NCBI GenBank assembly: GCA_026002995.1
Contig: BPGK01000001.1
Span: 2,046,001 to 2,110,000, forward strand
DNA length: 64,000 nt
Direction: 5' to 3'
Source of the DNA: Gaiellaceae bacterium
Lineage (GTDB): Bacteria; Actinomycetota; Thermoleophilia; Gaiellales; Gaiellaceae
Under the pieces are notes generated by a model. The model saw nothing but the letters and a program-made list of their open reading frames with translations. It made no database searches and was not told the origin of the DNA. This document shows, piece by piece, positions 5,440-59,984 of the stretch. A program made the position numbers and the translations under genes. Position 1 is the first letter of the stretch; the number at the start of each line of letters is the position of its first letter.

Positions 5440-6171
5440 CTAGGCGGGAACTGTAGCTTCCTCCAGCTCCTCCGTGATGTCGCGCGTCTTCGTCGCGTCG
5501 ACGTGGACTCCGGGGCCCATCGTGGTCGCGAGCGTGATCTGCTTGATGTAGCGACCCTTCGCCGCGGAGGGCTTGGCGCGGACGATCTCCTCGACGAGGG
5601 CCGCGTAGTTCTCGAGCAGCGCGCGCTCGTCGAAGCTGCGCTTGCCGATCGGGACGTGGACGTTCCCACCCCGGTCGGTGCGGTACTCGAGCTTGCCCGC
5701 CTTCGCATCCCGGACCGCCTTGCCGACGTCGAAGGTGACGGTGCCGGTCTTCGGGTTGGGCATGAGCCCGCGCGGACCGAGCACGCGACCCAACTTGCCG
5801 ACGACGCCCATCTGATCCGGCGTCGCGATCGCGACGTCGAAGTCGGTAAACCCCTCCTCGATCTTGCTCGCGAGGTCAGCGGAGCCGACGACGTCCGCAC
5901 CGGCCTCCTCCGCCTCGCGCGCCTTCTCGCCCTCCGCGAAGACGACCACGCGGACGTCCTTGCCCGTGCCGTGGGGGAGCATGACCGTCCCGCGCAGCTG
6001 CTGATCGGCGTGCCGGACGTTGAGCCCGAGCCGGAAGTGCGCCTCGATCGTTTCGTCGAAGCGCGCGCCGGGGATGCTCTTCAGCGCGCGGACGGCCTCG
6101 AGCGGTGTGTACGTGCGCTCGCGCTCGATCGCCGCGCGCGCCTCGCGGTAGCGCTTCCCGTGCCGAGTCAC
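5440..6171 (-). CDS. rplA: 50S ribosomal protein L1
   Basis: The 243-residue L1 protein binds 23S rRNA near the E site and in many bacteria also binds its own mRNA. It has the expected [11 protein letters not shown] start, the [20 protein letters not shown] segment and the signature [20 protein letters not shown]. The GTG start at 6171 has GGAGGTGGAG directly upstream. Instead of following rplK at the usual short distance, it is separated from rplK by 371 bp that consist almost entirely of three tandem 125-bp repeats. Confidence 0.97.
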
Positions 6172-6546
6172 TGCGTCTCCACCTCCGTCTGCCCCGCAGA
6201 GCGGTCACCCGCGGGAGCGGCTGCCCGCTCGCGGAAACCCCTGAAGCGGCCGCATGCGCGGCCGGTCGCTGCGCTGGACGCGAGAGTCGTCGTCACGGCG
6301 TCTCGACTCCCGTCTGCCCCGCCGAGCGGTCACCCGCGGGAGCGGCTGCCCGCTCGCGGAAACCCCTGAAGCGGCCGCATGCGCGGCCGGTCGCGGCGCT
6401 GGAAGCGAGCGTCGTCGTCACGGCGTCTCGACTCCCGTCTGCCCCGCCGAGCGGTCACCCGCGGGAGCGGCTGCCCGCTCGCGGAAACCCCTGAAGCGGC
6501 CGCATGCGCGGCCGGTCGCTGCGCTGGAAGCGAGCGTCGTCGTCAC
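6172..6546. repeat. Three tandem copies of a 125-bp unit between rplK and rplA
   Basis: Copies start near 6172, 6297 and 6422 with an exact 125-bp period and differ at only a few positions. The unit includes the final rplK codons (Gly-Val-Glu-Thr-Pro-stop), so it looks like triplication of the rplK 3' end plus the original rplK-rplA spacer. The copy next to rplA has diverged at its edge to give the rplA ribosome binding site. Each unit carries two good hairpins: CGGCCGC with a 4-base loop, and GAGCGG/CCGCTC with a 4-base loop. The period is not a multiple of three, so the array is not coding. It may be an amplified regulatory element, but no function is shown. Confidence 0.9.
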
Positions 6547-6965
6547 GGCGTCTCGACTCCCATGCTGCGAGCGGTGCCGGCGATGATCTTCATCGCCTGC
6601 TCGACGTCGCGGGCGTTGAGATCCGGCATCTTCGTCTCGGCGATCGAGCGGAGCTGCGCCTCGCTCAACCTGCCGACCTTCGTCCGATTCGGCTCACCGG
6701 AGCCGGACTCGATCCCGAGCGCCTCCTTGATGAGGACTGCGGCGGGTGGCGTCTTCGTGATGAAGGTGAACGAGCGGTCCTCGAAGACCGTGATCTCGAC
6801 GGGAATGATGCGGCCGTTCTCCTGGGCCGTCTCCGCGTTGAAGGCCTTGCAGAACTCCATGATGTTGACGCCGTGCTGACCGAGCGCAGGCCCTACCGGC
6901 GGCGCGGGGTTCGCCTGCCCGCCGGGGATCTGGAGCTTGATGATCGTCAGAACCTTCTTCGCCAT
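6543..6965 (-). CDS. rplK: 50S ribosomal protein L11
   Basis: The 140-residue L11 binds the GTPase-associated region of 23S rRNA. The N-terminal domain shows [20 protein letters not shown] and the conserved [20 protein letters not shown]. The C-terminal RNA-binding domain includes [18 protein letters not shown] and the terminal [14 protein letters not shown]. Start and length match the family. Its last codons form the edge of the downstream 125-bp repeat array. It follows nusG after 63 bp with a small hairpin in between. Confidence 0.98.
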
Positions 6966-9574: not shown

Positions 9575-9604
9575 GCAACGCGGGAGACCTGACCCCCGCG
9601 TTGC
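9575..9604. repeat. Dispersed palindrome, copy A
   Basis: The core GACCTGACCCC (9586-9596) is one arm of the GGGGTCAGGTC family also found near 26.4, 48.2, 51.9 and 58.5 kb. Here only one arm is complete. The flanks GCAACGCGGG (9575-9584) and its exact complement (9595-9604) form a 10-bp inverted repeat around it. It lies in the 173-bp gap between two minus-strand genes, and I see nothing else in that gap. Confidence 0.65.
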
Positions 9605-26410: not shown

Positions 26411-26517
26411 GGGGTCAGGTCTTCCACGTTCCACCCGTACGGCCCGCGGCAGAGACGCTGGAGCACCGAGGCGCCCCGAAGCACACGCAGGAGCTGGAAC
26501 GAGGAAGACCTGACCCC
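26411..26517. repeat. Dispersed palindrome, copy B (arms separated by 60 bp)
   Basis: The left arm 26411-26434 (starting GGGGTCAGGTC and containing GTTCCAC) and right arm 26495-26517 are complementary over 23 bp with one mismatch. The central 60 bp is unlike the other copies, as if DNA had entered the palindrome or the centre had been lost elsewhere. It sits directly after the GGDEF gene stop. Confidence 0.75.
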
Positions 26518-48162: not shown

Positions 48163-48368
48163 GGGGTCAGGTCTCTCCTGTTGCACGCGCGGCGCAAGTT
48201 AGGGGTCAGGTCTCTCCTGTTGCACGCGGCGTGCAACAGGAGAGACCTGACCCCAGCGTTTCCCCACGCCGCGTGCAACAGGAGAGACCTGACCCCAGCG
48301 TTTCCCCAGCGTGTTCCTGACCCCGCCAGCGCGACGCGCTGTTCGTGCAACATGCGAGACCTGACCCC
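48163..48368. repeat. Dispersed palindrome, cluster C (four arms in 206 bp)
   Basis: A single arm lies at 48163-48189. A perfect palindrome with 26-bp arms and a one-base centre is at 48202-48254. A further arm is at 48271-48296, and a diverged one at 48344-48368. All begin or end with GGGGTCAGGTC and contain GTTGCAC. The stretch after the palindrome, AGCGTTTCCCC, repeats after the third arm, so part of the cluster arose by tandem duplication. It fills the divergent gap between the phosphodiesterase and lysC genes. Confidence 0.9.
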
Positions 48369-48417
48369 TCCTTCCGACACCCACGCGGCGCCCGCGGCGC
48401 AGACCGACACCGTCGTC

Positions 48418-49641
48418 ATGAAGTTCGGCGGCTCCTCAGTCGCCGATCCGGACAAGATCCGCCACGTCGCCCGTCGGCTCGTGGAGGCACGTGAGCGCGG
48501 AGCGCGCGTCGTGGGAACCGTCTCCGCGATGGGGCACACGACCGACACGTTGCTCGAGCTCGCCGCCAGCGTCTCGCCGAACCCGCACCCGCGCGAGCTC
48601 GACATGCTCCTCTCCACCGGCGAGCGGATCGCATGCGCGCTCGTCGCGATGGCGATCCACGACCTCGGGCACGAAGCCGTCTCCTTCACGGGCTCGCAGG
48701 CCGGGATCATCACCGACCCCGTGCACACGAAGGCGAAGATCCGCGAGATCACGCCGGTGCGCGTCCTGGACGCGCTCGATCGCGGGAAGATCGTGCTCGT
48801 CGCGGGGTTCCAGGGGTTCTCCCGGGACACCATGGACGTGACCACGCTCGGACGCGGCGGCACGGACGCGACCGCGGTTGCCCTCGCCGCCGCCCTGGGC
48901 GCCTCCTGCGAGATCTACTCCGATGTCCCCGGGGTCTTCACCGCCGACCCGCGGATCGTCCCGGACGCGCGCAAGCTGCCGGAGATCTCGTACGAGGAGA
49001 TGCTGGAGATGGCGGCCTCGGGGGCGAAGGTGCTCATGCTCCGTGCAGTAGAGCTCGCGCGCGGGCACAGTGTGCCCGTGCACGCGCGCTCGACGTTCTC
49101 AGACGAGGAGGGAACCTGGGTGAGAGACACGGCTGGCATGGAGCAACCCATCGTCTCCGCTGTGACACATGCCGAGGACGAAATCCTCTTCCACCTGCGC
49201 GGAGTGCCCGATCGCCCAGGCGCAGCGGCGACGATCTTCGACGCTGTGGCCGCCGAGCACGTCAACGTCGACACCATCCTCCAGAACGTCGTCGGCAACG
49301 CCGCCGAGGTCTCGTTCTCTGTGCCCGAGGACGACGTGCGCGCGACACGACGCGCGCTCGAGCGCGCGCAGGAGACTCTGGGAGCGTTCGAGACCGAAGA
49401 GATCTCGGACCTCGGCAAGGTGTCGATCGTCGGCGCGGGGATGCGCTCCCACCCCGGTGTTGCGGCGCGCATGTTCCGCACGCTCGCTGACGAGGGCATC
49501 AACATCCGCCTGATCTCGACGTCGCCGATCAAGATCTCGTGCTTGATCTCACGTGCCGCGGTGCCCGCGGCGGTTCGTGCGCTGCACGCCGCTTTCGACC
49601 TGGGCGCGACCGACACCCATCGCGCCGGCGACTCGGAGTAG
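48418..49641 (+). CDS. lysC: Aspartokinase
   Basis: Aspartokinase starts the lysine/threonine/methionine pathway by phosphorylating aspartate. The kinase domain starts [20 protein letters not shown] and includes [20 protein letters not shown]. Two ACT domains follow, one at [20 protein letters not shown] and one at [20 protein letters not shown], with IKISCLIS, for feedback control. I use ATG 48418; an in-frame ATG at 48352, inside the palindrome, would add 22 residues ([20 protein letters not shown]...) and gives the beta-1 strand extra residues. Neither start has a clear ribosome binding site. Confidence 0.92.
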
Positions 49642-51867: not shown

Positions 51868-51993
51868 GGGGTCAGGTCCCTCGCGGGAGGGATGGGGTCA
51901 GGTCCCTCGCGTTGCACGCGGCGCGTCGCGGGAGGGATGGGGTCAGGTCCCTCGCGTTGCACGCGGCGCGTGCAACACGAGGGACCTGACCCC
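51868..51993. repeat. Dispersed palindrome, cluster D (four arms, one full palindrome)
   Basis: Arms start at 51868 and 51894, then a near-perfect palindrome fills 51939-51993: 16 bp of GGGGTCAGGTCCCTCG, one mismatch, then GTTGCACGC and the complementary arm. Repeats of 26 bp and 45 bp show local duplication with the flank GGGAGGGAT. It lies between convergent mscS and the sigma factor gene and could terminate both transcripts. No other feature is visible in this 211-bp gap. Confidence 0.9.
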
Positions 51994-56965: not shown

Positions 56966-57949
56966 GTGGCCGACGTGAGGGACACGGTGGAGCTCCACGA
57001 CGATCTCCAGGCCTCGTCGCCGGAGATCGCGCTCTCGCTCTCGCGGGCGGGCGTGAGCGGCGTCCAGAAGGCCGTCCGGATCCGGCGCGGCGAGGCGGAG
57101 ACCGTCATGGCCGCGGTCATCGACTGCACCGTCGACCTCGCGGCCGATCAGAAGGGCGTCCACATGTCGCGCTTCCCGGAGCTCTTCGACGAGGCGATCG
57201 AGCTGGTCGTCGAGCAGGAGGCGTTGCTCGTCGAGGTGCTCGCCGAGCACATCGCAAGCCGGATCATCGAGCGGCAGGGGGCGCTCCGGGCGGAAGTCTG
57301 GATCCGCGCCCAGTGGCCGATCCACCGGCGGACGCCCGTCAGCGGGCTCGCGACGCAGGAGATGGTGACGCTGTGCGGAGTCGCCGCGGCGTCCGAGTCG
57401 GGGACGCGTCGCGTCGTCGGAGTCGAGGCGACGGGGATCAACGCGTGCCCGTGCGCACAGGGACTCGTCCGGAACCGCGCCTCGGAGCGGCTCCTGGAGG
57501 CGGGCTTCGAGCCGGGCGACGTCGCACGTATCCTCGAGCTCGTCCCGATCGCGACGCATAACCAGCGCGGCCGCCAGACGCTCTTCGTCGGCACCGCCAG
57601 CGACCTCGACGCCGTGAGGCTCCTCGACATCGCCGAGCGCGCGATGAGCGCCCCGATCTACGACCTCCTCAAGCGGCCCGACGAGCTCTTCGTCGTCGAG
57701 CACGCGCACCTCCAGCCGCGCTTCGTCGAGGACTCGGTGCGCCATGCGCTCCGAGACGCCCTCGAGAGCCTCCCCGAGCTCGCCGACGAGGACTTCCTCC
57801 TCTCGCGACAAGTCAACTTCGAGACGATCCACGTGCACGACGTCGTCGCCGAGCGCTTCGGGACAGTCGGCGAGCTCCGTAGCGAGCTCGCAGGCGACGG
57901 CCCGAGCCCCGTGCAGACCACGCTCGCCGACTGGCTCAGTCGCTCGTAG
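56966..57949 (+). CDS. folE2: GTP cyclohydrolase FolE2 (type IB)
   Basis: FolE2 converts GTP to 7,8-dihydroneopterin triphosphate, the first folate step, in organisms that lack FolE or under zinc shortage. The 327-residue protein has GVSGVQKAVRIRRGEAETVM, MSRFPELFDEAIELVVEQ, the active-site GVEATGINACPCAQGL and the later EHAHLQPRFVEDSVRHALRD. GTG 56966. It overlaps plsY at its 3' end by 14 bp (convergent). ThyA and DHFR lie 2-3 kb away, completing part of the folate picture. Confidence 0.94.
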   Translation: MADVRDTVELHDDLQASSPEIALSLSRAGVSGVQKAVRIRRGEAETVMAAVIDCTVDLAADQKGVHMSRFPELFDEAIELVVEQEALLVEVLAEHIASRIIERQGALRAEVWIRAQWPIHRRTPVSGLATQEMVTLCGVAAASESGTRRVVGVEATGINACPCAQGLVRNRASERLLEAGFEPGDVARILELVPIATHNQRGRQTLFVGTASDLDAVRLLDIAERAMSAPIYDLLKRPDELFVVEHAHLQPRFVEDSVRHALRDALESLPELADEDFLLSRQVNFETIHVHDVVAERFGTVGELRSELAGDGPSPVQTTLADWLSRS

Positions 57950-58556
57950 CCCGGCGCCGCAGCTCGAAGCGATGCTCGGTCCCGCCGGCGAGCCGGCGGA
58001 TGTTCTGGCGGTGGAGGAGGATCACAGCGAGGGCACCGAGGACTCCGAACACGGCGATGGGCCATGGGTACGAGAGCGCGACGAGAAGCACGGCGAGCGA
58101 GAGCGCGGTCACGATCGACGCGAGTGATGCGTAGCGCGTCAGGGTGAACACGACGATCCAGATTCCGAGGCAGATCACCGCAACGAGCGGAGCGAGCGCG
58201 AACGTCGCACCACCGGCGGTCGCGACCATCTTCCCCCCCTTCTCGAAGCGCAAAAACACAGGGCGGGCGTGCCCAAGCATCGCCGCCGACGCTGCCAGCA
58301 CTCCGACGAGCGCTCCGCCCGCCCAGAGCCCGAGCAGCGCCGCCACGAGCCCCTTCGCCGCGTCCAGCAGCGCAACCGTCGCCCCGAGCGAGCGTCCGTA
58401 CGCACGGAACACGTTCGACGCGCCGACGTTCCCGCTCCCACGGGTACGAATGTCCTCGCCGCGGAAGATGCGCGGCAGCCAGTAGCCAAACGGCAGCGAG
58501 CCCAGGACGTACCCGCCCAGAACAGCCGCGAGAGAGGAAGGGGTCAGGTCTTCCAT
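57936..58556 (-). CDS. plsY: Glycerol-3-phosphate acyltransferase PlsY
   Basis: PlsY acylates glycerol-3-phosphate from acyl-phosphate in phospholipid synthesis. The 206-residue membrane protein has five helices and the three catalytic motifs: YVLGSLPFGYWLPRI, RTRGSGNVGASNVFRAYGR and RFEKGGKMVATAGG. The ATG at 58556, and the first six codons (MEDLTP), lie inside the palindrome arm; no other in-frame start exists before the first helix. So the repeat supplies the N terminus. Confidence 0.94.
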   Translation of the reverse strand: MEDLTPSSLAAVLGGYVLGSLPFGYWLPRIFRGEDIRTRGSGNVGASNVFRAYGRSLGATVALLDAAKGLVAALLGLWAGGALVGVLAASAAMLGHARPVFLRFEKGGKMVATAGGATFALAPLVAVICLGIWIVVFTLTRYASLASIVTALSLAVLLVALSYPWPIAVFGVLGALAVILLHRQNIRRLAGGTEHRFELRRRATSD

Positions 58557-58588
58557 GTTCCACCGTGGAACATGGAAGACCTGACCCC
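58540..58588. repeat. Dispersed palindrome, copy E (perfect, 24-bp arms)
   Basis: A perfect palindrome of 24-bp arms with a one-base centre: left arm begins GGGGTCAGGTC and ends GTTCCAC. It covers the plsY start codon and lies 11 bp before the SOD-like stop. Hence it may act as terminator for the SOD-like gene and as the 5' end of plsY. Confidence 0.92.
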
Positions 58589-58599
58589 TCTGACGCGCG

Positions 58600-59211
58600 T
58601 CACGCGACCGGGATCCGGTACGCGTCGATCCAACCGTTCACGACGCTCCAGTCGAGGTTGCGGAGGAACGCGTCGATGTAGGCGCCGCGGTCGGTTTGGT
58701 AGTCGAGGAAGTACGCGTGCTCGTACACGTCGAGCGCAACGAGCGGCGTCGCGTTCCAGACCGGGAACGTGTTCTGGGCGTCTCCGACGTAGTTGAAGAG
58801 CCGGGCCTCGTCCCAGTCGTACGCCGTCCAGGCCCACCCGCGGGCGGCCATGCCCGACGCCTTGAGATCGGCGCTCCAGGCCTCCGCCGACCCGAAGTCT
58901 CGCTCGATGAGCGCCCCGATCGCGCCGTCGGGCTCGCCGCCCTCTCCTCCCAGGTGCTCGAAGTACACCTCGTGGTTCTTGATCCCGCCGATCGCGAACG
59001 TGAGATCGACCTTGAGCGCGCGGAGATCCGAGTAGACCTGGTTCGCGGTGGCGAGCTCGACCTCCGCGAGCTTGCCCAGGATCTCGTTGCGCTTCGCGAC
59101 GTAGCCTTGGTAGAGCCGATAGTGCGCGTCGATGGTGGCGCGCGAGATGCCGTCGAGCTCGTGGAGCGCTGGCTTGAGCTCGCGGGGCCTGATCTCGACG
59201 AAGTTCGTCAT
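58600..59211 (-). CDS. Superoxide dismutase-family paralogue with altered metal site
   Basis: A 203-residue Fe/Mn SOD-fold protein. The three C-terminal metal ligands can be matched: His80 in [12 protein letters not shown], Asp161 and His165 in [10 protein letters not shown]. The first His is not in its usual place: the family motif HHxKHHxxYV is [10 protein letters not shown] here, so His30 is about one position off. Proteins of this type are found beside canonical SOD genes; activity is unproven. ATG 59211 is divergent from sodA. It may bind a different metal or be structural. Confidence 0.82.
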
Positions 59212-59251
59212 CCGCGTGTCCTCCAGGTCGGGGCGGGAACGCCGCGGAGCA

Positions 59252-59257
59252 TATCCT
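59252..59257 (+). promoter_or_regulatory. -10 box for sodA
   Basis: TATCCT at 59252-59257 lies 39 bases before the sodA ATG within the 84-bp divergent region, so the box can serve sodA. No clear -35. Confidence 0.4.
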
Positions 59258-59295
59258 TCTGTCGGAATCGCACCCCGGAGAGAGGAGATCGAGAG

Positions 59296-59904
59296 ATGGC
59301 ATTCACCCTTCCCCCGCTCCCCTACGACGTCACCGCGCTCGAGCCGCACATCGACGCCCGCACAATGGAGATCCACCACGGCAAGCACCACCAGGCCTAC
59401 GTGGACAACGCGAACAAGGCGCTCGAGGGCACGGAGTGGGCCGACCGCTCGGTCGAAGACGTCCTGCGGAACATCGACCAGATCCCCGAGAGCGTGCGCA
59501 CCGCGGTGCGGAACAACGCCGGCGGCCACGCGAATCACACGCTCTTCTGGGAGATCATGTCCCCGGATGGCGGCGGCGAGCCGAGCGGCGAGCTCGCCGA
59601 CGCGATCTCGTCCGCCTTCGGTGACGTCGCCACGTTCAAGGAGACGGTGATCCAGAACGGGATCACGCGGTTCGGCTCGGGCTGGACGTGGGTCGTGTGG
59701 AACGGCTCCGGGCTCGAGGCCTATTCGACCGCGAACCAGGACTCGCCCCTGATGGAGGGCCATGTGCCGATCCTCGGGATCGACGTGTGGGAGCACGCCT
59801 ACTACCTCCACTACCAGAACCGGCGCCCGGACTACCTGGCCGCCTGGTGGAACGTCGTGAACTGGGACGCCGTCGCCGCGAAACTCGCCGCCGCTCGCGG
59901 GTAG
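59296..59904 (+). CDS. sodA: Superoxide dismutase (Fe/Mn)
   Basis: A canonical 202-residue Fe/Mn superoxide dismutase. All four metal ligands are in place: His27 in EIHHGKHH, His81 in [10 protein letters not shown], Asp163 and His167 in [10 protein letters not shown]. The family motif [11 protein letters not shown] is present. ATG 59296 with AGAGGAG upstream. Whether Mn or Fe is used is not decided. It detoxifies superoxide in the cytoplasm. Divergent from a paralogue. Confidence 0.96.
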
Positions 59905-59984
59905 GCGTCCATGTCCAGGGCGGGGCGCCAACTCGGCGCCCCGCTGGGCGTCGCGCGCCGGAGGCCGCGCTATCGTCGGTCGTC

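Follow-up and report, generated by a model that had tools for sequence, protein, structure and literature searches.

The window analysed here is a stretch of 64,000 nucleotides from the genome of a Gaiellaceae bacterium, an uncultured actinobacterium (hereafter G000), in which plsY, coding for glycerol-3-phosphate acyltransferase, follows a superoxide dismutase family gene (sod) on the same strand. The features found at the junction of the two genes are given below in window positions.

57936-58556, minus strand: plsY, glycerol-3-phosphate acyltransferase (TIGR00023), 206 amino acids
58539-58541, minus strand: plsY codon 6 (CCT), at or next to the native ATG/GTG start position of same-genus relatives
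58540-58588, no strand given: RAYT-linked REPIN-like palindrome, an inverted repeat with 24-bp arms and a 1-base centre
58554-58556, minus strand: plsY start codon ATG, within the 3' arm of the palindrome
58589-58599, minus strand: 11-nt remainder of the sod-plsY spacer, from the sod stop to the palindrome
58600-59214, minus strand: sod (superoxide dismutase family), the upstream neighbour of plsY

The palindrome at the plsY start

The palindrome (GGGGTCAGGTCTTCCATGTTCCAC-C-GTGGAACATGGAAGACCTGACCCC) consists of 49 bases, forming 24 perfect pairs around a single central base. It begins 11 nt after the sod stop codon (TGA, 58602-58600) and occupies almost the entire sod-plsY spacer. The original prediction placed the ATG of plsY and the codons for M-E-D-L-T-P in the palindrome arm, which was confirmed from the window sequence and its translation: the 3' arm takes in codons 1-5 together with two bases of codon 6 (CCT). 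The further claim that no alternative in-frame ATG, GTG or TTG precedes the first membrane helix was also found to be correct. The 27 in-frame codons upstream of the ATG (up to a stop at 58640) include no ATG, GTG, TTG or CTG, and the next canonical in-frame start is a GTG at codon 49, beyond helix 1 and the GSGNVGASN motif. PlsY matches TIGR00023 with 171.7 bits (cut-off 137.2) over residues 11-196, i.e. after the repeat-encoded residues, and no other significant match to PlsY turned up in the genome. The region upstream of plsY (58600-59905) harbours two superoxide dismutase-family genes arranged back to back and divergently, the minus-strand one (beside plsY) being only a weak match to Sod models.

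A RAYT-linked repeat family

Whole-genome repeat searches, together with the reading of the stretches around the repeats, placed the plsY palindrome in a large repeat family. The 11-base core of this family, GGGGTCAGGTC, is present in 155 copies (69 forward, 86 reverse) in the 2.62-Mb single-contig genome, the reversed control giving 0, and 14 of the copies fall in the window (shuffle mean, 0.05). Full arms of the plsY subtype with no more than 3 mismatches number 33 in the genome (control, 0). With core counts in the window and the genome this far above those of the shuffles and the control, and with matching full arms, the plsY palindrome is not a product of chance. The 155 cores are gathered in about 65 clusters, mainly inverted pairs between called genes, and fall into several sequence subtypes, that of the plsY 3' arm being ATGGAAGACCTGACCCC. 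Other copies in the window, and the gene that one of them enters, are as follows.

9586-9596, minus strand: lone arm of the repeat family
26411-26517, no strand given: family copy with one plsY-subtype arm (GTGGAACGTGGAAGACC) and one GAGGAAGACC arm
48163-48374, no strand given: five-arm cluster (>><<<), upstream of and into lysC
48352-49641, plus strand: lysC, aspartate kinase, with its start ATG and MRDLTP within the last arm of the 48163-48374 cluster
51868-51993, no strand given: four-arm cluster of the repeat family

Elsewhere in the genome, six arms of the same direction follow each other every 24 bases at G000:561857-561987, making up a head-to-tail array of half elements. About 50 nt downstream of G000:2303284, beside a repeat arm, there is a sequence similar to the 3' half of a tRNA(Asp) (CCTGTCATGCGGGAGGTCGCGGGTTCGAGTCC), where ARAGORN found no complete tRNA. 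The window also contains a unit of ~125 bases in three tandem copies, 94-95% identical (6167-6561).

A RAYT gene at G000:495.6 kb (NCBIfam REP_Tyr_transpos, 82.7 bits, cut-off 80) is flanked on both sides by arms of the family in inverted orientation, one of which is identical (24/24) to the plsY arm; the same 24-base sequence recurs unchanged at other places as well. A second RAYT, at 1287.5 kb, is also located between arms of the family. On account of its high-copy inverted pairs, situated mainly between genes, and of the RAYT genes enclosed by its arms, the family can be regarded as REPIN-like. It shares with the REP/REPIN elements of RAYT (TnpA-REP) transposases the high-copy inverted pairs and clusters, the existence of subtypes, the copies flanking RAYT and the mainly intergenic location (PMC2817692, PMC3116915, PMC8266576), but differs from them in that a single arm forms no obvious palindrome, the GTAG head was not recognised, and several copies lie within coding sequence and supply start codons. 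In a non-systematic reading of arm contexts, GGGGTCAGG was not regularly preceded by GTAG; in some RAYT systems, mutation of this tetranucleotide is reported to be largely tolerated (PMC8266576). As no GTAG was recognised, the presumed movement of the palindromic element by a RAYT is a matter of association with these genes only.

REPs are extragenic by name and are mostly considered for what they do at the ends of mRNAs. For the present family the term is only partly true, because copies are also found in frame within carB, dnaE2 and an lhr-like gene. The carB copy (ARGQVFHVPGLEHGRPDPADP; G000:1223079-1223128 within G000:1221011-1224121) is absent from most relatives. In G008 and G009 this site of carB is occupied by an unrelated palindrome, TCCGGAATCCGC...GCGGATTCCGGA, and this difference led to the rejection of shared ancestry for the insertion. 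In the error-prone DNA polymerase gene dnaE2 (repeat at G000:1542074-1542126) and in the lhr-like helicase gene, named by sequence reading (repeat at G000:1913710-1913801), the frame stays open through the repeat. The Rickettsia palindromic elements (RPE; reviewed in PMC10969869) are likewise palindromic mobile DNA residing in frame inside conserved genes, as the carB, dnaE2 and lhr-like copies do, the plsY repeat being at the start of its gene rather than internal; RPEs, however, measure about 150 bp and are fused within ORFs, whereas the unit described here is about 50 bp long, RAYT-linked and recurrent at start codons. Enterobacterial RU-1/RU-2 and the QMITEs of Coxiella are further small mobile repeats that have become joined to reading frames; a predicted N-terminal signal sequence and a C-terminal extension are among the fusions described (PMC2759123, PMC5896051). 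Those examples concern putative or strain-specific proteins, in contrast to the genes treated below, which are conserved core genes whose native start has been displaced.

Displaced starts in plsY and other core genes

A plsY match was obtained in 46 of the 61 genomes searched, and the N terminus was readable at 29 loci besides that of the window, all from the same order. Neither the repeat nor MEDLTP is present at any of these 29 loci. In the same genus, the start codon of plsY, either ATG or GTG, corresponds to codon 5-6 of the window protein, as in MSDVLAIVGGYL (G006), MTEALAVLGGYL (G002), MVEALAILGGYL (G001) and the GTG-initiated V-TQAAAVLGGYL (G010) and V-IEAVAVVGGYL (G009). The repeat-free relatives thus begin at a start of their own, which indicates that the repeat took over this function: as judged by sequence comparison, plsY of the window no longer has its native start, which has been replaced by the palindrome ATG five codons further upstream. 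The same comparison, together with the finding that other core genes also begin in this arm, supports the proposal of the original prediction that the palindrome was inserted where the gene began and was then domesticated. The flanks of the insertion have diverged, so that neither its precise joint nor what became of the native start codon can be read from them; insertion and start replacement were probably one event.

In all five of these same-genus relatives sod adjoins plsY, with the sod stop 3-12 nt upstream, an arrangement which suggests that the two genes are co-transcribed. Other small palindromes are located at the sod-plsY junction or the plsY start in G007, G019 and G022, and the junction seems to be an insertion-prone spot.

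Codon-scored gene calls around all clusters, combined with arm-by-arm reading, showed that lysC, whose N terminus runs from the arm on to ...TVVMKFGG, is joined by lepA of this genome (MEDLTPQDRIRNFAIIAH) as a gene that begins in the same arm. Further cases in other species are lepA of G004 (MQDLTPQERIRNF), mtnA of G007 (MEDLTPSRIVRL), a methylmalonyl-CoA mutase-like gene (mutA) of G007 and a penicillin-binding-protein-like gene of G008, the last two named by sequence reading. With the single exception of G004 lepA, the lepA and lysC genes of relatives start without the repeat. The triplet at the start position of the arm is ATG in only 12 of 155 arms, ACG and GAA being commoner. Six of the 12 ATG arms are continued in frame by a coding gene, as against 13 of the 143 others (Fisher p = 0.0009, as counted with home-made codon-score gene calls on copies that are related). 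In the lysC cluster four arms have AGG and ATG occurs only in the arm at the gene, while in G004 lepA the 3' arm reads ATG and the 5' arm implies ACG. Together with the enrichment of ATG arms, these two cases point to selection acting on the start codon, either upon insertion or later.

The lepA captures of G000 and G004 end at the same base. A five-gene tree, several deeper nodes of which are weak, groups G000 with G002, G006 and G007, apart from G004 (91-92% support), with repeat-free lepA in between; a single shared insertion is therefore not favoured, and on this phylogeny the two captures look independent. Three other candidates were not counted. The mtnA of this genome was set aside as a clean capture because repeat-free relatives natively encode DLTP there, from which it follows that chance similarity can mimic an arm. 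In an acs-like gene (G000:987705, minus strand) the arm ATG is in frame, but a downstream start, MMDYQLNV, is plausible, and in rpsP the usual start, MAVKIRL, is preceded by the arm ATG at a distance of 17 codons.

Probable translation from the palindrome and competing explanations

The reading that fits these observations best, and which we consider very probable, is that insertion of a RAYT-linked REPIN-like palindrome into the sod-plsY junction displaced the native plsY start, as one instance of a start-codon capture that recurs in the genus. Family membership, the absence of repeat and MEDLTP from relatives, the loss of the native start and the recurrence are shown at the level of sequence, while the course of events can be pictured as follows. 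The palindrome would have landed at the very short sod-plsY junction and displaced the plsY start; the in-frame ATG offered by its ATGGAAGACCTGACCCC-subtype 3' arm would have allowed the essential plsY to survive, and PlsY would have gained the five residues MEDLT, the P that follows them standing where the old start was. Start-codon capture of this kind would have been repeated in the genus at lysC, lepA (two species), mtnA, mutA and the PBP gene.

The consequences for translation were assessed by calculation. The hairpin at plsY has a computed stability of about -46 to -49 kcal/mol, with about -46 kcal/mol for the hairpin folded alone, and in the RNA of the junction the computed probability of the plsY ATG being unpaired is 0.00. 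Freeing bases -12 to +13 at this start is calculated to require about 39 kcal/mol, compared with 13, 15 and 21 in three relatives. The predicted occlusion of the start codon thus holds in silico, and only there. The starts of mtnA and mutA in G007, lepA in G004 and the PBP gene in G008 are likewise closed in silico, whereas in lysC and lepA of this genome, where extra arms compete, the ATG is computed to be partly accessible.

PlsY is most probably translated from the palindrome ATG. With sod and plsY on one transcript, the hairpin would strongly lower independent initiation on plsY, which may then depend either on the ribosome terminating on sod, 11 nt before the palindrome, or on processing of the RNA.

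The nearness of the palindrome to sod also allows it to be seen as an element that mainly serves the upstream gene, by protecting its mRNA or affecting translation termination, the plsY start being a by-product. In E. coli, REPs situated just after stop codons have been proposed to act in these two ways. The hairpin 11 nt past the sod stop is similar in position, and several other clusters of the family sit 2-14 nt past a stop codon; here, however, the same hairpin also holds the start codon of the next gene, and further clusters are far from stops or within genes. Such a primary role in sod expression is considered unlikely. An intrinsic terminator was also looked for and none was found, the palindrome being without a T run.

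The strength of the hairpin, the closed plsY ATG, the energy needed to open it and the four similarly closed starts in G004, G007 and G008 could also be taken as signs of an evolved translational switch, which would shut the plsY start and open on temperature, helicase action or sod translation, so regulating phospholipid synthesis. Yet a structure conserved at orthologous starts, of the RNA thermometer or riboswitch type, was not found, the palindrome being absent from 29 of 29 other plsY loci, and no alternative-pairing element was seen. Moreover, perfect arms are to be expected from a recent mobile copy, and the stability is therefore no sign of selection. This makes a dedicated switch improbable, and the partly open lysC and lepA starts of this genome favour a tolerated start-codon capture over it; the working mode of the hairpin is most likely tolerance or tuning.

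Equally improbable is a leaderless plsY mRNA, beginning within or just before the 3' arm, so that the hairpin could not form. Such a transcript would remove the problem of occlusion, but a sigma-70 consensus search detected no sigma-70-like promoter on either strand between 58400 and 59300, the hairpin itself included, and the sod-plsY junction is tight in the five relatives. The suggestion of the original prediction that the mRNA starts within the hairpin thus found no support. Finally, although the mtnA of some relatives natively contains DLTP-like codons, the notion that MEDLTP is the native PlsY N terminus, with the palindrome arising around it by chance or through assembly error, hardly deserves credence, given that no relative plsY encodes it, that the 24-base arm recurs identically at the RAYT locus and elsewhere, and that the genome is a single contig in which the sod-plsY order of the relatives is kept on both sides.

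RAYT/REPIN biology, the insertion of RPEs into genes and MITE-ORF fusions are already known (PMC2817692, PMC3116915, PMC8266576, PMC10969869, PMC2759123, PMC5896051). In the literature searched, which covered few subscription papers and gives no proof of priority, no report was found of REP-type elements repeatedly supplying the start codons of core genes, and a search for the core sequence GGGGTCAGGTC returned only hits unrelated by title.

A broader generalisation can be offered tentatively: the RAYT-linked palindromes of Gaiellaceae may be recurrent start-codon donors at tight, co-transcribed junctions, where arms with an ATG, sometimes created by mutation, would be kept and give rise to MxDLTP and a start hairpin, resetting the expression of core genes. 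On the preferred reading, a RAYT-linked repeat family has several times provided essential or core genes with their start codon and N terminus. These genes offer a natural collection in which to study how a start codon enclosed in a hairpin of roughly -46 kcal/mol gets translated, and whether expression within operons is retuned by mobile palindromes. As for gene callers, most MxDLTP starts beside these repeats in the clade would be repeat-derived and are not to be "corrected".
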